Assembly: GCA_947484245.1 (NCBI GenBank)
Contig: CANKOT010000002.1
Location: forward strand, 5,355-69,354
Reading direction: 5' to 3'
From: Comamonadaceae bacterium
GTDB lineage: Bacteria > Pseudomonadota > Gammaproteobacteria > Burkholderiales > Burkholderiaceae
DNA length: 64,000 bases
Shown here in pieces: positions 20,960-64,000 of this stretch. The first letter of the stretch is position 1, and the number at the start of each line of letters is the position of its first letter. Both the position numbers and the translations under genes were made by a program. The notes under the pieces are model-generated. The model worked only from the letters and a program-made list of their open reading frames with translations. It was not told the DNA's origin and searched no databases.

Positions 20960-21769
20960 TTAAACAAGCCCTTTGTTGGGCTTCACTGTTTCTAATTCTA
21001 GATCCACAGCGCGGCGTTCGTCGAATACAAAACAACCGCCGTCGTAGTGCGAGCCATCGGTCTCTTCAAAATATTTCAAGATGCCGCCCTCTAACTGGTA
21101 AGTGTGGGGCAGACCATTTTGTTGCATGAAGATGGCAGCTTTTTCGCAGCGAATGCCGCCGGTACAAAAGCTGATGATGGTTTTGTCTTGCAGCTCTTCT
21201 TTGTGCGCCCGCAAGGCTTCGGGAAACTCTGTGAATTTGGTGAGGCGCCAATCTATCGCGCCCTTGAAGGTGCCTTCGTCCACTTCGTAATCATTGCGGG
21301 TGTCCAAAATCACCACGGGTCGGCCGTTGTCGTCAAAGCCCTGATCGAGCCATCTTTTGGCGGTGGCAGGGTTGACGGCGGGGGCACGCCCTTCGGCGGG
21401 TCGAATGGTGGGATGGTTCATGCGAATGATTTCGCCTTTGACCTTGACCAACATTTTTTTGAATGGCACCGTTTCCGACCAACTTTCTTTGGGAGCGATG
21501 TCAGAAAACCTAGGATCTGTGTGGAGTTCGGCCACAAAAGCTCTCACATCCTCGGCGGGGCCTGCCAAGAATAAATTGATGCCTTCAGAGGCCAACAAAA
21601 TCGTGCCTTTCAGGGCGCGCTCTAAGCAGCGTTCTAGAAGCACTGGGCGAAGTTCTTCTGCATCCGGGATGGGGATGAACTTGTAGGACGAAATATTCAA
21701 AATATTGTTCACCCCTGTATTGTAGAAAACATCTGAAGCAGCTTCTACAATGGACCCATGTTTGTTCAT
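20960..21769 (-). CDS. trhO: tRNA uridine(34) hydroxylase (rhodanese-related, YceA/TrhO)
   Basis: 269 residues from ATG 21769, which has GGAGG with 6-bp spacing; the ATG at 21779-21781 overlaps that ribosome site and is unlikely. The N-terminal acylphosphatase-like part contains GTILLASEGINLFLAG, followed by a rhodanese domain with VVILDTRNDYEVDEGTFKGA and active-site FCTGGIRCEKAA. TrhO makes 5-hydroxyuridine at tRNA position 34 using oxygen. Its start overlaps the divergent dnaE start by 12 bp, so each promoter must lie inside the other gene. A downstream start cannot be excluded because homologues often begin near NILNISSYKF. Confidence 0.88.
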   Translation of the reverse strand: MNKHGSIVEAASDVFYNTGVNNILNISSYKFIPIPDAEELRPVLLERCLERALKGTILLASEGINLFLAGPAEDVRAFVAELHTDPRFSDIAPKESWSETVPFKKMLVKVKGEIIRMNHPTIRPAEGRAPAVNPATAKRWLDQGFDDNGRPVVILDTRNDYEVDEGTFKGAIDWRLTKFTEFPEALRAHKEELQDKTIISFCTGGIRCEKAAIFMQQNGLPHTYQLEGGILKYFEETDGSHYDGGCFVFDERRAVDLELETVKPNKGLV

Positions 21770-24700
21770 TTGCGCCTCCATTCCGAGTTTTCCATTGTCG
21801 ATTCCACCTGTCGCATTGACGAGGTGGTGCAGGCCGCGGCAGACGATCAGCAGCCCGCTTTGGCCATCACCGACCTCAGCAATTTGTTTGGCGCGATCAA
21901 GTTTTACAAAGCGGCTCGCGAAAAGGGCGTTCAGCCCATTTTGGGCGCTGAAATCTTTTTAGAAGGTTTGGGTGCCGATCCACTGGCTTTGTCTCGGGTC
22001 ATGGTGCTGGTGCAAAGCTCGCAAGGTTATTTGAACCTGTCCGAATTGCTGGCGCGTGCCTGGACGCAAAACATGGTGAAAACCAATGCGGTGGTCAAGC
22101 TGGCGTGGTTGCAAGAGTTGTCTGAAGGTTTGATTCTTTTGTCTGGCGCGCAAGCCGGACCCGTGGGGCAAGCCTTGGTGCAAGGTGATACGTCACGAGC
22201 TGCGGAAATTGCGTTGCAATTGGCGTCTATTTTCACACACCGCTTCTATTTGGAAATTCAACGCGCAGGTCGACCTGAAGACAATGCGCATGTGGTGGCG
22301 GCCGTTAAGTTGGCCTCTCGCTTGAGCTTGCCCGTGGTGGCCACGCACCCCATTCAGTTTTTGACCCAAGACGATTACGAATCGCACGAAGCTCGGGTGT
22401 GCATTTCTGAAGGTGAAATTTTGGGCAACCAACGACGTGTTCGCAAGTTCACGCGCGACCAATACTTCAAGTCGTCTGCCGAAATGCAGGCCCTGTTTGC
22501 CGATGTGCCCAGTGCCTTGGCCAACTCGGTTGAAATTGCCAAGCGATGCAATTTGACCTTAGTGTTGGGCAAACCGCAATTGCCCAACTATCCAACGCCC
22601 GTCAACGATGGCAAGCCCATGCCCATCGAGGATTATTTCCGCTTGTTGTCAGTTGAGGGTTTGGAAGAACGCCTGGTGCACTTATACCCCGATGCAGCCA
22701 AGCGAGAAACAGAGCGTCAGCGTTATGCCGAGCGTTTGGAATTTGAGATCGACACCATTTTGAACATGGGGTTCCCAGGCTACTTTTTAATCGTGGGTGA
22801 CTTCATCAATTGGGCCAAGAAAAACGGCTGTCCCGTCGGACCAGGTCGTGGCTCGGGTGCAGGCTCGTTGGTGGCTTATTCATTGAAGATCACCGACCTC
22901 GATCCGCTGCAATACAACTTGCTGTTTGAGCGCTTCTTGAATCCTGAGCGGGTGTCCATGCCCGACTTTGACATTGATTTTTGTCAGACCAATCGCGACC
23001 GCGTGATTGACTACGTGAAAGACAAATACGGCCGCGATGCCGTCAGTCAAATTGCCACCTTCGGTACCATGGCGGCACGCGCGGCCATTCGTGACGTAGG
23101 TCGTGTGCTCGACATGAGTTACATGTTCTGCGATGGCATCAGCAAGCTCATTCCCAACAAGCCAGGTCAGCACATCACCATCGATGGCGCTATCAAGGCT
23201 GAGCCTATTTTGGCCGAGCGTTTGGAAAAAGAAGACGAAGTCAAAACTTTGTTGGCGCTGGCGCAAAAACTCGAAGGCATGACCCGCAATGTGGGCATGC
23301 ACGCGGGCGGTGTGCTCATTGCGCCTGGCAAGCTCACCGACTTTTGTCCTTTGTACCAACAGCCCGGCAGCACATCGGCCGTCAGTCAGTACGACAAAGA
23401 CGACGTGGAAGCCATTGGTCTGGTGAAATTTGACTTTTTGGGCTTGGCCACCTTGACTATTTTGGAGTTGGCGCGCGAGATGATTGTGAAGCGCCACAAG
23501 GGCCAAGAAAACTTTGCTTTTGAAAATATTCCCTTAGACGATACGGCCACCTACAAATTGTTTGCCGATGGTCGCACCGAGTCTGTGTTCCAGTTTGAAA
23601 GTCGCGGCATGCAAGGCATGTTGAAAGATGCGCGGCCTTCACGCTTGGAAGACTTGATTGCGTTGAATGCCTTGTACCGACCCGGCCCGATGGATTTGAT
23701 TCCAAGTTTCGTAGCGCGCAAGCACGGCCGGGAAGTGATTGACTATCCTCATCCTTTGGTAGAGAAAGTGTTGTCCGAAACCTACGGCATCATGGTGTAC
23801 CAAGAACAGGTGATGCAAACTGCTCAGGTATTGGGCGGTTACAGCTTGGGCGGCGCCGACTTGTTGCGCCGCGCCATGGGTAAGAAAAAAGCGGAAGAAA
23901 TGGCCGAGCACCGCGAAATTTTCCGCAAAGGTGCGGTTGTCAATGGCTTGTCGGAAGCCAAAGCTGACGAAGTTTTTGACTTGATGGAAAGGTTTGCAGG
24001 TTACGGTTTCAACAAATCACACGCGGCGGCTTATTCTTTGTTGGCGTATCACACGGGTTGGCTCAAGGTGCATTTCACGGCGGAGTTTTTCTGCGCCAAC
24101 ATGACCATTGAGGTGGACGACACCGACAAACTCAAGGTCTTGTTTGAAGATGCTTTGAAGTTTGGCATCAGCTTCGATCCACCCGACGTCAATCGCGGCA
24201 CGCACCGCTTTGAGCCAATCTCTGACAAAGTCATTCGCTACGGTTTAGGCGCCATCAAGGGCACGGGTCAACAGGCCATCGATGCCATTGTGAAAGCGCG
24301 TGAGGAGGGCGGCCTCTTTACCAGCTTGTTTGATTTTTGTGTGCGTGTCGATCGCAGCCGCTTGAACAAACGAACCGTCGAGGCATTGGTCAAGGCGGGC
24401 GCATTTGATTCTCTGCAACGCAATCGCGCATCCTTGGCGGCTTCTATCGACCGCGCTTTTGATTTCTCTACGGCCACATCTGCCAATGCCAACCAGGGTG
24501 GCCTGTTTGACATGATGGGCGACGATACCCATGGCTCTAGCACGCAAGAACCCGAGCTGGTGGACGTCTTGCCATGGGGTGTGAAAGAGCAGCTCACCAA
24601 CGAAAAAACAGCGGTTGGTTTTTACTTGTCAGGTCATTTGTTTGATGCGGTAGAGCGCGAAGTTCGCTTGTTTGCCAAATGCAAAATTGACGACCTGATT

Positions 24701-25246
24701 GACAGCCGCGAACCGCAACTGTTGGCGGGCATTGTGAGCGACTTTCGCGTCATCAATGCCCAACGCGGTAAGCTGGCCCTTTTTAAGCTGGACGACAAAA
24801 GTGCTGTCATGGAAGCTACGGCCGACGAGACCATGATCAACGCCAATCGCCATCTTTTCAAAGACGATGAACTGATCATTGTGATGGCCAAGATGCAAGC
24901 CGATCGCTTCTCAGGCGGCTACCGCTTGTCCATTCAACAAGTCTGGGATTTGCCTGCAGCGCGTTGTCGCTTTGGCAAGTTCTTGCGTGTTGCTGTGAAT
25001 GGCCGTGCGCCTGAAGTGGCCAAACTCGTCAAAGCCTTTCCGCCTCAACGTGAAATGACGGAGCAAGGGGAGTTATTCAGGGGTTTGCCAGTGCGCTTGA
25101 AACTAGAGCGCAATGCAAACAACGTAGCCGCATCTGCAGAACTGCTTTTGGGCGAGCAAGCCAAATTTTTCCCAAGTGATGCGGCCTTGTCCAGCTGGAT
25201 AGCCCAAGCCGACCAAGGCAAAGCCGAAATCGTTTACGACATTTAA
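21758..25246 (+). CDS. dnaE: DNA polymerase III alpha subunit
   Basis: 1162 residues, full length. It starts MFVHLRLHSEFSIVDSTCRI, the PHP domain. The polymerase core contains GPGRGSGAGSLVAYSLKITD, the catalytic FLNPERVSMPDFDIDFCQTN and MHAGGVLIAPG. GYGFNKSHAAAYSLLAYHT precedes the tandem HhH and OB domains in the C-terminal third. It is the replicative polymerase. No strong ribosome site is seen upstream, and the start lies inside the antisense trhO reading frame. A hairpin element begins 5 bp after its stop. Confidence 0.98.
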   Translation: MFVHLRLHSEFSIVDSTCRIDEVVQAAADDQQPALAITDLSNLFGAIKFYKAAREKGVQPILGAEIFLEGLGADPLALSRVMVLVQSSQGYLNLSELLARAWTQNMVKTNAVVKLAWLQELSEGLILLSGAQAGPVGQALVQGDTSRAAEIALQLASIFTHRFYLEIQRAGRPEDNAHVVAAVKLASRLSLPVVATHPIQFLTQDDYESHEARVCISEGEILGNQRRVRKFTRDQYFKSSAEMQALFADVPSALANSVEIAKRCNLTLVLGKPQLPNYPTPVNDGKPMPIEDYFRLLSVEGLEERLVHLYPDAAKRETERQRYAERLEFEIDTILNMGFPGYFLIVGDFINWAKKNGCPVGPGRGSGAGSLVAYSLKITDLDPLQYNLLFERFLNPERVSMPDFDIDFCQTNRDRVIDYVKDKYGRDAVSQIATFGTMAARAAIRDVGRVLDMSYMFCDGISKLIPNKPGQHITIDGAIKAEPILAERLEKEDEVKTLLALAQKLEGMTRNVGMHAGGVLIAPGKLTDFCPLYQQPGSTSAVSQYDKDDVEAIGLVKFDFLGLATLTILELAREMIVKRHKGQENFAFENIPLDDTATYKLFADGRTESVFQFESRGMQGMLKDARPSRLEDLIALNALYRPGPMDLIPSFVARKHGREVIDYPHPLVEKVLSETYGIMVYQEQVMQTAQVLGGYSLGGADLLRRAMGKKKAEEMAEHREIFRKGAVVNGLSEAKADEVFDLMERFAGYGFNKSHAAAYSLLAYHTGWLKVHFTAEFFCANMTIEVDDTDKLKVLFEDALKFGISFDPPDVNRGTHRFEPISDKVIRYGLGAIKGTGQQAIDAIVKAREEGGLFTSLFDFCVRVDRSRLNKRTVEALVKAGAFDSLQRNRASLAASIDRAFDFSTATSANANQGGLFDMMGDDTHGSSTQEPELVDVLPWGVKEQLTNEKTAVGFYLSGHLFDAVEREVRLFAKCKIDDLIDSREPQLLAGIVSDFRVINAQRGKLALFKLDDKSAVMEATADETMINANRHLFKDDELIIVMAKMQADRFSGGYRLSIQQVWDLPAARCRFGKFLRVAVNGRAPEVAKLVKAFPPQREMTEQGELFRGLPVRLKLERNANNVAASAELLLGEQAKFFPSDAALSSWIAQADQGKAEIVYDI

Positions 25247-25251
25247 TTGAA

Positions 25252-25412
25252 GTCAAACAATTGGGGTCAGATCAACATTAATTTCCAATCTAAAGGGCTA
25301 AAGGCAGAGGGGGGCTGAACGATTTCTGGTACTCCAGTATGAGGAAGCCCCCCTCTGCCTTTAGCCCTTTAGATTGACCAAATTAATGTTGATCTGACCC
25401 CAATTGTTTGAC
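25252..25412. repeat. Hairpin repeat element, copy 1
   Basis: A 161-bp near-perfect inverted repeat. Outer arms of 33 bp (25252-25284 and 25380-25412) contain GGGGTCAGATCAAC and its complement. After a 1/3-base asymmetry an inner stem of 31 bp follows (25286-25316 and 25346-25376), with no mismatch in either stem. The 29-base loop (25317-25345) contains a CTGG-TACT-CCAG mini-hairpin. The element fills the space between the convergent dnaE and tolA stop codons, 5 bp from each. No T-tract follows, so it is not a normal terminator. No transposase is present in the window. Confidence 0.92.
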
Positions 25413-25417
25413 CCCAA

Positions 25418-26377
25418 TTAATCTTTGTGGCGGAAGCTGATTTCTAGAACCGGTGGTACACGGCCATCTTCGTCTCGGGGGAGGGTGGCGGTTTTGTCGA
25501 TGGCTTTGAGGACGGCTTCGTCCCATGCTTTGTTGCCACTGCTAGACAGCAGTTTGCGGCTCAGGATGGTGCCATCGGGGGATGTGCGAACTTCAACTTC
25601 GGCTTTGGGGTTGCCAGCTACATCTTCGGTAAAGGTAATGTTGGGTTTGATGCGCGCACGAATGCGACCCGCATAGCTGGCGGATGGGCCTGAGGATTTC
25701 AAGGCAGTGCCTTTGGCCTTTTCGTCACCCGATGCGCCTGCCATACCTTGCATGCGTTTGAGGTTTTCATTGCGCAGTGCCTCTGCGCGTTTTTCCTCAA
25801 CGGCCGCTTTTTTGGCATCTTCTTTGGCTTTAGCGGCAGCTTCAGCCTTCTTCAGTGTCTCTTCTTTTTTCTTCTTCTCGAGTTCCTTGGCCTTTTCCTT
25901 TTCTTTCTCTTTGGCCTTCGCTTTTTCTAATTTTTCTTTTTCAATTTTGTCTTTCTCAAGCTTCTTTTTCTTTTCCAATTCAGCTTCTTTTTTCTCTTCT
26001 AGTTTCTTTTTTTCGATTTCTTTTTTGAGTGCAATGTCGGCCGCTTCACGCTCAGCCGCTGCATTGACCTTGGGCACTGCGGGTGGCGGTGGAGGCGGTT
26101 CTGGTTTCACCTCGGGTTTTGGTTCTGGTTTCTGTTCAACGGCCTTCACAGGCTCAGGCGGCGTTGGCTCCGGTTCATTGGCGGCTGGTGCAGCTTCTAA
26201 GGGTACGGCAGACCATAGCTCTGCAGATGCAGACAAATTGTTGGGCTCGGTTTTCCATTGAACGCCCAAGGCAATTGCGATCAGCAGCAGCAAGTGCATG
26301 AACAAGGCAAAAGACAAAGAGCGACCAAACCCGCCAACGGGTGGTGGTGCAAACTCATTGTGTGCGGTGGCGTTCAT
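25418..26377 (-). CDS. tolA: TolA, Tol-Pal envelope protein
   Basis: 319 residues. One N-terminal membrane helix (about 21-40, with LLLLIAIALGV), a Pro-rich stretch, and a very long Lys/Glu/Ala helical region rich in EKKKLEEKK-type repeats (about 110-210). The C-terminal globular domain carries YAGRIRARIKPNITFTEDV and TSPDGTILSRKLLSSSGN, as in TolA/TonB domains. It links the inner-membrane TolQR motor to the outer membrane during cell constriction. It is last in the ribD-to-tolA run; tolB and pal do not follow, and the convergent dnaE begins beyond the hairpin element. Confidence 0.9.
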   Translation of the reverse strand: MNATAHNEFAPPPVGGFGRSLSFALFMHLLLLIAIALGVQWKTEPNNLSASAELWSAVPLEAAPAANEPEPTPPEPVKAVEQKPEPKPEVKPEPPPPPPAVPKVNAAAEREAADIALKKEIEKKKLEEKKEAELEKKKKLEKDKIEKEKLEKAKAKEKEKEKAKELEKKKKEETLKKAEAAAKAKEDAKKAAVEEKRAEALRNENLKRMQGMAGASGDEKAKGTALKSSGPSASYAGRIRARIKPNITFTEDVAGNPKAEVEVRTSPDGTILSRKLLSSSGNKAWDEAVLKAIDKTATLPRDEDGRVPPVLEISFRHKD

Positions 26378-36895: not shown

Positions 36896-37199
36896 GGCAG
36901 GCCTTCAAAGGATGGTTCCTTGCTGAATTGAGGCACAAATGGCCGCAAAGTGGCAAGGGCTGCCCAGGCGAACGGCTGAAACCTTGTGCCATCAAGTCCC
37001 GGACAAGGTGCACGCTTCCCAGTGGTTGAGGATGGCGCAATGCTCATCCATTTCCACGTCAGAACTTGGTTTGCTATGAGAGCAAGGCCAGGATCCTATC
37101 GCCAGTTGCGTACACCGTAAGTGTAGCCGAGGAGGGGGTCAATCCGTTTGAAAAGACGCCATTTGGCAGTCCTTTTGCGCTGTCTTTTGCCAAAAGACC
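36896..37199. other. Intergenic region between glyA and the transglycosylase gene
   Basis: 304 bp without a supported gene. It holds the glyA leader. Near 37182-37198 a perfect inverted repeat GTCTTTTG-C-CAAAAGAC lies 1 bp from the transglycosylase stop; on the plus strand it is followed by a T-rich run, on the minus strand it is preceded by the matching A-run. No tRNA or known riboswitch was recognised. Confidence 0.5.
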
Positions 37200-56412: not shown

Positions 56413-56567
56413 GAATAATTGGGGTCAGATCAACATTAATTTCCAATCAGTGAGGGCTGAAGGCAAGGGGGGCTGAACGATTTCTGGTACTCCAGTATGA
56501 GGAAGCCCCCCTTGCCTTCAGCCCTCACTGATTGACCAAATTAATGTTGATCTGACCCCAATTATTC
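56413..56567. repeat. Hairpin repeat element, copy 2
   Basis: 155-bp inverted repeat: outer arms of 30 bp (56413-56442 and 56538-56567) with GGGGTCAGATCAAC; inner stem of 31 bp (56444-56474 and 56504-56534); and the same 29-base loop (56475-56503) as in copy 1. The inner stem differs from copy 1 in sequence but is perfectly paired. The right end abuts the stop codon of the leftward Bug gene at 56568. Same plus-strand orientation as copies 1 and 3. Confidence 0.92.
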
Positions 56568-57545
56568 TTATTCGGCTTTGATGCCTGCGCGTCGAATGAT
56601 TTGGGTATAGCGCTCGAGTTCCACCGCAATGATTCGGCTAAATTCAGCCGGCGTTGTGGCGTACAAGTCAAAGCCAATGTTTTGCAGTTGGTCGCGCACC
56701 TCGGGCTGACTCAAGATGGCGGCAACTGCTTTGTGCAGCTTGTCAACAATGGCTGGCGGGGTGCCGGCTGGAGCTAAGAGGCCTTGCAGGTTGTCTGCCA
56801 CCACCTCGGGAAAGCCCGACTCAGCAAGTGTTGGCACGTTGGGCATCACAGCGCTTCTGCGGGCGCTGGTTACAGCGATGGCTCGCAAGGTGCCTGCTTT
56901 CACGTGTGATGTGGTAGGGGGCAAAGCGGAGCAACCAAAGGTGAGCTGGTTGCCCAGCACCGCATTGACCACGGGCGCTGCGCCTTGGTAGGGGACATGA
57001 ATGGCTTCGCCGTTGGCAGCCATCTTCAAACCTTCACAAGCAATATGCGGCGTGGTGCCAACACCGGGTGTGCCATAAGTCGTGGGGTTGCGCTTTTGCT
57101 TTAAGTGGGCAGCCAAGTCGGCAACATTTTGAATGGGCGACGAAGGGTGCACGTAAATGATATTGGGCGATACCGCGGCATAGGTGATGGGCGCAAAATC
57201 CTTGATGGGATCAAATGGCGCTTGCATGGCGGGGTTGGACACAATGTTTGAGCTGGAGAACAGCAAGGTATAGCCGTCTGCAGGGGATGTGGCCACGCTC
57301 TTGATGGCGATGTTGCCGCCCGCGCCCGTGCGGTTTTCAATCAAGATAGGTTGCCCGAGAGAATTTTTAAGGTGAGTGGCAATGACTCGGGCGATGACAT
57401 CGGTGGGGCCGCCAGCAGCAAATGGAACCACAACGCGGATCGGTTTGTTGGGGTAACCGTCGGCGCTTTGCGCATGCGCTGTCCCGGCTAAGAACAATGC
57501 GCAAAGTGCGGCTAGGGAAGTGCTGAACAATTTCAATGTCTTCAT
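56568..57545 (-). CDS. Bug/TctC-type periplasmic substrate-binding protein
   Basis: 325 residues. The signal peptide ends near GTAHAQS (residue 27). Bug blocks: YPNKPIRVVVPFAAGGPTD, NRTGAGGNIAIKSVATSPAD, VPYQGAAPVVNAVLGNQLTF and VMPNVPTLAESGFP. Its start is 19 bp after the GntR/UTRA stop in the same direction, so it is probably the transported-ligand receptor of the molybdenum hydroxylase module. Copy 2 of the hairpin element begins at its stop. Confidence 0.9.
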   Translation of the reverse strand: MKTLKLFSTSLAALCALFLAGTAHAQSADGYPNKPIRVVVPFAAGGPTDVIARVIATHLKNSLGQPILIENRTGAGGNIAIKSVATSPADGYTLLFSSSNIVSNPAMQAPFDPIKDFAPITYAAVSPNIIYVHPSSPIQNVADLAAHLKQKRNPTTYGTPGVGTTPHIACEGLKMAANGEAIHVPYQGAAPVVNAVLGNQLTFGCSALPPTTSHVKAGTLRAIAVTSARRSAVMPNVPTLAESGFPEVVADNLQGLLAPAGTPPAIVDKLHKAVAAILSQPEVRDQLQNIGFDLYATTPAEFSRIIAVELERYTQIIRRAGIKAE

Positions 57546-62890: not shown

Positions 62891-63901
62891 ATGAGAATTT
62901 TGATTTACGGCGCGGGCGCCATTGGCAGTGACTTGGGTGCTTTGCTCAGCGCCAGCGGTGAGGACGTTCAACTGTTGGCACGCGGTGCGCAGTTGGCTGC
63001 CTTGCAAGCCAATGGGGTGACTGTTGAGTACCAAGGTCAGACAAGCGTTCAGGTGCCAGTTAAAGCGCTGTCGGCAGAAGCCTGCAGTGGACGCTTTGAT
63101 CTGATCTTTGTCACTCTCAAGTCTACTCAACTGGCTGCCGCTGCAAAGTCCATTGTGTCTCTCCTGGCACCTGACGGTGTGGTGGTGATGATTCAAAACG
63201 GACTGCCGTGGTGGTACTTTGATGGCGTTGAATCAGCCCACCAAGGCGCTCGTTTGTCTTGCCTAGATCCTGATGGCGTGCTCCAGCGCGAGATACCCTT
63301 AAGCCAAATACTAGGCGCCGTGATCTACCGGCCAGTGACGCAAACAGCACCAGGAAAAATCTTTTTGCCCAAAGTCATGCCGCCGAAACTGCAGATTGGC
63401 GAAGTCGACAATCAGCTTTCGAAGCGACTGCAAAGCATTGCCGATTTGGTTAGTCGCGCCGGTCTACCCACAGAAGCGACGCAAGATATCAGGCGCGCCA
63501 AGTGGCAGAAATTGATGATGAATCTGATTTGGAATCCCTTGTGCTCAATCACGCAGTCGTCGCCGGGCTATATCGTTCAAAGCGCATTGGCTGCCGACAT
63601 TGTGGGTTTGATGATGCTCGAAGGAAGTGCTGTGGCTCGCAGCGTTGGCATTGATTTAAAGGTTGATCCGCTGGCCGAGTTAGAGCGTGTGCGCCACAAC
63701 TTGGCACAAACTCCCTCAATGCTTCAAGACGTTCGTGCAGGCCGACCGATCGAGTTTGATGCCATCATGAATGTGGTTGTAGAAATGGCGCAGCTCACAG
63801 GGGTGCCTGTGCCTACGCTGAAGTCGGTTGCGGCCATGCTGGATGTGCTGAATGCAGGGGTCATTCGCCAAGGACAGGGCGTTGGATTTTTGGGCAGTTA
63901 A
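62891..63901 (+). CDS. Ketopantoate reductase-family dehydrogenase (PanE/ApbA-like)
   Basis: 336 residues. Rossmann motif MRILIYGAGAIGSDLGALLS, and the catalytic block RRAKWQKLMMNLIWNPLCSI with the conserved Lys and Asn. ADIVGLMMLEGSAVARSVGI follows. It is longer than E. coli PanE (303) and, as the last gene of a catabolic operon, probably reduces or oxidises a pathway 2-keto/hydroxyacid rather than making pantoate. Its TAA overlaps the first bases of hairpin element copy 3. Confidence 0.82.
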   Translation: MRILIYGAGAIGSDLGALLSASGEDVQLLARGAQLAALQANGVTVEYQGQTSVQVPVKALSAEACSGRFDLIFVTLKSTQLAAAAKSIVSLLAPDGVVVMIQNGLPWWYFDGVESAHQGARLSCLDPDGVLQREIPLSQILGAVIYRPVTQTAPGKIFLPKVMPPKLQIGEVDNQLSKRLQSIADLVSRAGLPTEATQDIRRAKWQKLMMNLIWNPLCSITQSSPGYIVQSALAADIVGLMMLEGSAVARSVGIDLKVDPLAELERVRHNLAQTPSMLQDVRAGRPIEFDAIMNVVVEMAQLTGVPVPTLKSVAAMLDVLNAGVIRQGQGVGFLGS

Positions 63902-64000
63902 TAATTGGGGTCAGATCAACATTAATTTCCAATCAGTGAGGGCTGAAGGCAAGGGGGGCTGAACGATTTCTGGTACTCCAGTATGAGGAAGCCCCCCTTG
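63900..64000. repeat. Hairpin repeat element, copy 3 (cut by window end)
   Basis: 101 bases identical to copy 2 from AATAATTGGGGTCAG onward: outer left arm, inner left arm, the 29-base loop and the first 11 bases of the inner right arm. It begins at the TAA stop of the reductase gene. Same orientation as copy 2. Confidence 0.9.

Follow-up and report, generated by a model that had tools for sequence, protein, structure and literature searches.

A family of hairpin elements with a conserved apical loop in Comamonadaceae and its probable relation to a TIR-type RAYT

Hairpin elements of the window and their architecture

The window, i.e., the whole stretch of 64,000 nucleotides analysed here from a Comamonadaceae bacterium (contig CANKOT010000002.1), contains three copies of a hairpin element, two of them complete (copies 1 and 2) and the third ending at the window edge. 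They lie beside genes that we take to be dnaE, tolA, a Bug gene and a reductase gene, the last two names being those of an earlier sequence-only reading of this DNA. The features are as follows.

21758..25246, + strand: dnaE-like gene (context only), with 16 nt between its stop codon and the start of copy 1
25243..25262, + strand: left outer end of copy 1, iterated and copy-specific, forming a longer palindrome with 25402-25421
25263..25401, + strand: copy 1, a complete long element flanked by the convergent genes dnaE and tolA
25263..25284, + strand: left outer arm of copy 1, GGGGTCAGATCAACATTAATTT, a RAYT-type end; in relatives, these ends lie on both sides of the RAYT gene
25377-25379 and 25285: asymmetric internal loop of copy 1, unpaired ACC opposite C
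25286..25316, + strand: 5' side of the inner stem of copy 1, 31 nt, 100% complementary to 25346-25376
25317..25345, + strand: apical loop of copy 1, 29 nt, with the mini-hairpin CTGG-TACT-CCAG at 25326-25337
25346..25376, + strand: 3' side of the inner stem of copy 1
25380..25401, - strand: right outer arm of copy 1
25402..25421, + strand: right outer end of copy 1, iterated, TGACCCCAATT type
25418..26377, - strand: tolA-like gene (context only), whose stop codon lies 16 nt beyond copy 1
56421..56559, + strand: copy 2, complete long element, downstream of the minus-strand Bug gene
56444..56534, + strand: inner stem and loop of copy 2 (stem 56444-56474 with 56504-56534; loop 56475-56503)
56568..57545, - strand: Bug-like gene (context only), with 8 nt between its stop codon and copy 2
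62891..63901, + strand: reductase-like gene (context only), with 5 nt between its stop codon and the start of copy 3
63907..64000, + strand: copy 3, cut by the window end, which retains the left arm, the 5' side of the stem, the loop and the beginning of the 3' side

Direct sequence comparison bears out the earlier description of shared outer arms, a second stem of 31 bp and an identical loop of 29 bases. The outer arms of 22 bp are common to the window copies, while the inner stem differs in sequence between copies 1 and 2, yet is free of mismatches inside each of them, and a small asymmetric internal loop (C opposite ACC) parts the arms from the stem. The interior between the arms measures 95 nt in the complete copies, and the 29-nt loop with its 4-bp mini-hairpin is identical in all window copies, being complete in copy 3 as well. 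The 20-nt core of the arm occurs five times in the window as compared with 0 in 100 shuffles, and the fold of copy 1 as single-stranded DNA has an energy of -76.8 kcal/mol (z = -21.8). The flanks outside the GGGG are also palindromic and differ in sequence between copies 1 and 2. It is from these outer, copy-specific flanks that the sequence-only reading had counted its distance of 0-5 bp to the stop codons; the proximity itself is real, but the distances from GGGG or CCCC are 16, 16, 8 and 5 nt.

Several familiar classes of element were considered and set aside. In agreement with the earlier reading, no T-run directly follows either complete copy, and an intrinsic terminator was rejected since AATT follows both and no terminator-like site was found at copy 2. 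An Rfam RNA was rejected because the window gives only a tRNA and a ZTP riboswitch, neither of them at the elements; in a lax Rfam scan of six loci, the hairpins had only sub-threshold matches, mostly to microRNA families. The riboswitch is a ZMP/ZTP riboswitch at 36955-37119 on the minus strand (45 bits against a cutoff of 39). A plasmid element was rejected for lack of a plasmid match, and integron attC sites were rejected by eye. A viral element was likewise rejected, as the exact 33-nt loop and the loop pattern both occur 0 times in viral contigs and the relaxed arm pattern matches one contig (L001), with a single unpaired arm. Among the matches listed from the open-licence PubMed Central literature, no published report of these elements was found.

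Copies in relatives and the Y1/RAYT gene with the same ends

The closest relatives found belong to Limnohabitans (Comamonadaceae), the nearest genome being that of Limnohabitans sp. MMS-10A-178 (G001), with 90-94% identity to stretches of the window. A scan of genome contigs with the exact arm gave at least 117 stretches, 80 of which were listed, so that degenerate copies are under-sampled. The 80 listed matches belong to entries named Comamonadaceae, Limnohabitans, Burkholderiales or Betaproteobacteria, and to two MAGs named Cryomorphaceae and Singulisphaera. Eight genomes were picked from these exact-arm matches, and are hence all element-bearing, for counts of the arm and of Y1 genes. Each of the eight contains 24-67 arms at up to two mismatches, against 0 for a reversed-pattern control; copies are thus numerous in these relatives. 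The fetched loci hold 138 distinct elements, comprising 82 long elements with the loop, 28 short elements of 65-85 nt, 15 consisting of arms only and 13 composite or other forms, the composites being built so that a short element occupies the place of the loop of a long one. A scarcity of copies, a missing loop and no bias towards stop codons had been named as observations that would count against the proposal, and the relatives display none of these. As a separate observation, one genome carries five copies of the end variant GGGGTCAGATCAACATTGTT in a single orientation, 0.5-2.7 kb apart (G002:C1:449203-453561).

Exactly one match to Y1_Tnp (PF01797) is present in each of the eight genomes, in a protein of 230-233 aa whose gene lies upstream of what is presumably a gltB-like gene. 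This gene is bounded by element ends in all eight (left end exact in eight, right end exact in six and with one mismatch in two). A Y1/RAYT gene flanked by the same arms, which the sequence-only reading had suggested looking for, thus exists in 8/8 relatives, all chosen as element-bearing. The window itself appears to lack it, in agreement with the earlier statement that no transposase is present, at least as regards RAYT (tblastn of three RAYTs, best E 0.05).

The only Pfam domain of the protein at E 0.001 is Y1_Tnp, and the motifs NHxH and YxDLNPVR are invariant across 37 homologs. Over the 28 pairs of the eight genes, dN/dS ranges from 0.036 to 0.085. The NCBIfam model REP_Tyr_transpos (REP-associated tyrosine transposase) scores 78.4 bits, below its cutoff of 80, while a profile search of the PDB returns TnpArep 4er8 as the best hit (E 1.3e-6) and a single-sequence PDB search returns nothing at E 0.001. 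The HUH motif with a single-tyrosine core and the similarity to TnpAREP place the protein in the RAYT/TnpAREP family. In the family set, 188 of 200 genomes have a homolog at E 1e-20 or better, mostly one each, and 12 have none at this threshold. Among the 37 RAYT loci that were read, a gltB-like motif lies downstream in 36, the right end is present in all 37 and the left end in 26, being missing upstream of the gene in the other 11. Judging from these sequences, the gene most likely codes for a Y1/HUH enzyme of the RAYT/TnpAREP family that is present in single copy and passed on vertically, in keeping with the description of RAYTs of the REPIN/RAYT system as single-copy and vertically inherited (PMC8049555).

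The ends vary by lineage. In the eight RAYT loci of this clade, the right end is GATCAACATTAAT or one base off, and in the 29 more distant loci, it is of the GATTC[CT] type in 22, GATCCC in two (L158 and L159) and another sequence in five; the RAYTs of other lineages have different ends. The GGGGTCAGATTCCAATT end is found in 42 of the 200 family genomes, each of which has between 1 and 24 matches, and the counts of 1-3 seen in many of them may represent the RAYT's own ends alone; two genomes (G048 and G139) give no RAYT hit at E 1e-20, yet have one such end each. The end of this clade occurs in one of the 200 family genomes, which is the centre genome itself, and its exact form in 22 of 80 genus genomes. 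All 20 genus genomes whose dnaE matches at 81% or more across 400 nt or more are among these 22; the remaining two are G007 (no dnaE match) and G550 (a short match). The end is absent in G529 (dnaE 79%) and in G511 (81% over only 114 nt). Among the genomes sampled, the end type is lineage-specific and confined to this clade.

This variation bears on the reading of the elements as classical MITEs mobilised by a DDE transposase and unrelated to the Y1 gene, for which the ends around RAYT would be one more insertion. The size and the terminal inverted repeats of the elements, with ends GGGGTCAGATCAACATTAAT, are MITE-like, and the direct AATT repeat around some copies is readable as a target duplication, but RAYT has the right end in 37/37 loci and the ends vary by lineage together with the gene, which makes a DDE origin highly improbable.

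Two further observations concern the surroundings of RAYT. A TGTCCC[CT][AT]A-like motif (one mismatch allowed) lies downstream of the stop codon in 37/37 loci (L119-L126 and L158-L186), precedes the right end where that part is printed and resembles the end with one base changed; it may be an enzyme-binding or regulatory site. In four loci (L159, L163, L166 and L184), left ends upstream of RAYT take the form of short tandem repeats of the TAATAGGGGTCA type.

Taken together, the hairpins are very probably REPIN-like non-autonomous mobile elements, whose ends AAWTGGGGTCAGATCAACATTAAT (inverted) are the cognate TIRs of a TIR-type RAYT ('TIRYT'). Ends shared with the enzyme gene, dispersed and mostly intergenic copies and polymorphism at one orthologous site were observed in relatives, and the elements are presumably mobile, as their sequences suggest. 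The first of two options in the sequence-only reading, a non-autonomous hairpin of the REP/RAYT type, gains support from the many copies and from the arms that flank the Y1/RAYT gene.

Several characterized systems resemble this one in part. A TIRYT or TIRtron is a RAYT-like gene within long terminal inverted repeats with GGGGWSAS (Di Nocera et al. 2013, PMC3733652). The relatives share with it a Y1 RAYT-like gene with TIR ends that fit GGGGWSAS and copies of the TIR elsewhere (24-67 arms in 8/8 genomes; 22/80 genus genomes), and differ from it in that the repeats enclose a hypervariable paired stem of 31 bp with an invariant loop and occur in long, short and composite classes. According to the available text of PMC6006769, 20/26 TIRYTs fall in RAYT subclass 2.1, which has a C-terminal HTH; RAYT here lacks one by Pfam (only Y1_Tnp at E 0.001), which leaves TIRYT membership intact because the HTH is not part of the definition. 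As in REPIN/RAYT (Bertels and Rainey 2011, PMC3116915), invariant inverted ends border a variable fold-back spacer with compensatory changes; unlike there, the arms, read directly, show no GTAG-tagged REP, the copy number is in the tens and the apical loop is conserved, no such loop being described for REPINs in the available text of that source. The REP and TnpAREP of E. coli and Stenotrophomonas have in common with it an HUH/Y1 enzyme (4er8 being the best PDB profile hit), and their single-stranded hairpin substrates are recognised via loop, bulge and tetranucleotide (PMC8266576), a feature applied here by analogy; the GTAG foot is absent. The Y1 catalytic core is shared with IS200/IS605 (IS608) as well, but the eight genomes have one gene each, at one locus, and no autonomous mobile copy was seen in them. 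On the sequence evidence, the system most likely works like REPIN/RAYT and, judged by ends and gene, belongs with TIRYT/TIRtron rather than with the GTAG REP kind.

According to the text available, TIRYTs are possibly less productive than RAYTs (PMC3733652), and no REP-like sequences were found near the gene in RAYT subclasses 2.1 and 2.3 (PMC6006769). The present case offers a TIR-type RAYT, kept at one locus family-wide, with a sizeable element population and visible turnover, in a clade that includes cultured strains. The conserved-apex hairpin on an element of TIRYT type appears to be new relative to the known TIRYT and REPIN kinds, as do the two-sided covariation, the exchange of cores at one site, the flipping of the loop and the occurrence of the loop on unrelated stems without arms.

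Stem pairing, turnover and gene context

The stems vary extensively while staying paired. Across the 82 long elements, 75 distinct stems were counted, with 52 mismatches in 2512 inner-stem pairs, some of the gap counts stemming from trimming. The apex and the internal loop have the same orientation in 41 of these elements and opposite orientations in 35, with six undetermined, so the apex appears to flip freely. Alignment A1 covers 38 of the 41 same-orientation elements (L051, L067:932-1069 and L127 left out) and none of the 35 opposite and six undetermined ones, giving 37 distinct rows and 1992 cells. Pairing holds in 99.4% of these cells, among which 197 carry two-sided changes, 8 one-sided changes and 12 are unpaired. 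None of 500 shuffles reaches any of five pairing measures, a comparison that related sequences can win without structure; when the partner is slid by 1-3 columns, pairing falls to 31-51% and two-sided cells to 15-24. Orthologs of copy 2 display the same tendency at single sites. For example, in the ortholog from G001 (L294), one side is shorter by a G and the opposite side by a C; in that from G007 (L295), a substitution is matched by its pairing partner and the apex is flipped. The arm of L294 further carries a one-sided change, so that such changes do occur.

Turnover can be followed at the dnaE-tolA junction, which was read in 30 genus loci (L264-L293). A long element is present in six (L265, L268, L274 and L280, as well as L269 and L284 with GAGC-type arms), a short element in two (L264, and L270 with another end type), a composite in two (L267 and L277) and arms only in three (L271, L275 and L276); one has the residual AATTGGGTCCCAATT, a shorter end pair (L273), and two have a broken remnant or are unclear (L278 and L283). 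In L264, from G001, the short element sits in the same flanks as the long copy 1 of the window. Nine loci have no element in the printed stretch (L266, L281, L285-L287, L289-L291 and L293), which provides the empty sites that had been proposed as a check, and five were not readable (L272, L279, L282, L288 and L292). Core exchange at one site, with the dnaE-tolA junction holding a long, short, composite or collapsed element or none, appears from these comparisons to be a new observation. What separates filled from empty sites is A/T-rich sequence, which may belong to the element or to the target; the AATT at the ends is ambiguous in the same way. No solo scars of GGGGTCA/TGACCCC with 0-14 nt inside were found in the fetched loci.

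Relative to G002 (L265), the outer palindromic flanks in the window have the same 6 bp changed on both sides. Over 131 copies, complementarity extends outward by a mean of 7.1 nt, compared with 3.4 for flanks of different copies, and reaches at least 8 nt in 51% versus 6%. On 50 of 272 flank sides, or in 45 of 136 copies, a further GGGGTCA-like end (one mismatch allowed) is found no more than 40 nt outward, compared with 18 of 519 length-matched control stretches that contain such an end; 43 of these 50 ends are not followed by the GA of the full end, and some of the 50 belong to composites.

With regard to gene context, which was taken from ORFs of at least 100 aa rather than from a gene finder, 55 of the 138 elements lie between tandem ORFs, 52 between convergent and 18 between divergent ones, three lie inside ORFs and 10 at locus edges. 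The background gaps of the same loci number 183 tandem, 92 convergent and 85 divergent, so that the convergent setting accounts for 52/125 elements versus 92/360 gaps. Among 159 neighbouring stop codons, 111 lie within 40 nt of an element, three of them overlapping it, a count given without a background for distance, and 20 lie exactly 2 nt away. AAWT directly precedes GGGG in 123 of 131 copies (89 AATT and 34 AAAT), so that TAA stop codons may extend straight into the junction. Since REPs in general sit mostly downstream of coding regions (PMC3733652, in the text available), the bias is not special to these elements; the proximity is real and fits the known extragenic bias of such repeats together with A+T-rich junctions.

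The second option of the sequence-only reading was a structured RNA at mRNA 3' ends, i.e., hairpins selected at the transcript level as a stabiliser, processing site or terminator, with the loop as a protein- or RNA-binding motif. The proximity to stop codons and the convergent excess would suit such a role, as would the invariant loop and its mini-hairpin, which has a two-sided change in 2 of the 37 distinct rows of A1. Selection on transcripts, however, sits poorly with the rarity of one-sided changes (8 cells versus 197 two-sided), with a loop that points either way, with the lack of a T-run at the two complete window copies and with the 18 of 125 elements that lie between divergent ORFs. 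On the transcript strand of copies between tandem genes, mismatches comprise seven G-T and seven A-C, small numbers that give no hint of wobble at the RNA level. No sign of RNA-level selection was found, and this second option, left without positive support, is improbable.

On the preferred, REPIN-like reading, the substrate of the TIR-type RAYT would be the ends folded as single-stranded DNA, most likely at the replication fork; by cutting and joining them, the enzyme would spread or exchange elements in A+T-rich intergenic DNA, often after stop codons. This proposal is modelled on the TnpAREP enzymes studied so far, which recognise single strands in a strand-specific manner via GTAG, loop and bulge and cleave at CT or CA (PMC8266576, in the text available); the loop and the internal loop of the present elements are probably single-stranded features read by protein, as are the loop and bulge of those REPs. 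The pattern of changes further suggests that the arms may be kept identical by local templated correction inside the hairpin (template switching), which would explain the two-sided changes, the symmetric indels and the flipping loop, and for which quasi-palindrome mutation offers a parallel (PMC3820800, as far as its available text goes). Because the asymmetric internal loop is not erased by such correction, either the correction is local or the internal loop is selected. In the available text of PMC3116915, selection for pairing is proposed for REPINs, in which compensatory changes are said to be frequent; the rarity of one-sided states here favours correction over selection for stem pairing, without proving it. 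It also provides a testable case in which arms would stay identical through templated correction and not through base-by-base selection.

The loop as a second repeat family

The apical loop is not confined to elements with arms. Its pattern, at up to two mismatches, occurs in 14 of 200 family genomes, and the exact pattern in three of 300 order genomes, the same three being present in the family set; since 188 of the 200 family genomes have RAYT, its presence in all 14 is uninformative. Armless loop hairpins number 55 distinct examples on 43 distinct stem stretches, with 21.8 of 24 positions paired versus 11.3 for mismatched halves (the best of several offsets in both cases). One genome (G072) has 61 loops, of which five are single and the others make up 28 inverted pairs spaced 154-156 nt apart.

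These armless hairpins and the inverted pairs raise the possibility, held here tentatively, of two overlapping repeat systems, in which the RAYT family captured an independent 'invariant-apex' hairpin family and the second system matters for the loop. No partner gene of the loop family was found, and such a capture is compatible with the elements being REPIN-like dependants of the TIR-type RAYT. In the printed flanks of RAYT genes, no loop copy lies beside the gene, nor was the inner stem seen there. An autonomous version was sought in four genomes as a widely spaced pair of loop hairpins and none was found, several loops being single; adjacent inverted pairs in these genomes are 109-301 nt apart, which is too close for a gene. 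L040 was considered as an autonomous loop element and rejected, as it holds separate elements. The presence of the loop on unrelated stems without arms, where it is putatively dependent on a partner, is the least explained part of the finding.

A more specific reading, rather unlikely as a whole, treats the invariant-apex hairpin as a separate DNA element of Comamonadaceae, in which a stem of arbitrary sequence presents a single-stranded recognition loop of 25 nt. A putative factor, or RAYT, would read the loop, and templated correction of the arms together with exchange of the apex would rewrite the palindromes; the hairpin would thus persist at a site although its content is replaced. In either case, the free-standing loop family supplies a defined 25-nt bait for finding the partner.

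In G072, the paired loops form two-hairpin elements (for example, L229 1066-1245), whose spacer looks palindromic in those that were read and which constitute a separate repeat family. A 29-base match between a loop pair of this genome and a Pseudoalteromonas plasmid (E 0.08) was taken as chance. In G001, four loop-hairpin pairs lie within 6 kb (L227 1879-7745, in G001:C1:827000-837000), the first of them just after a tRNA gene and an ORF that we take to be serS-like.
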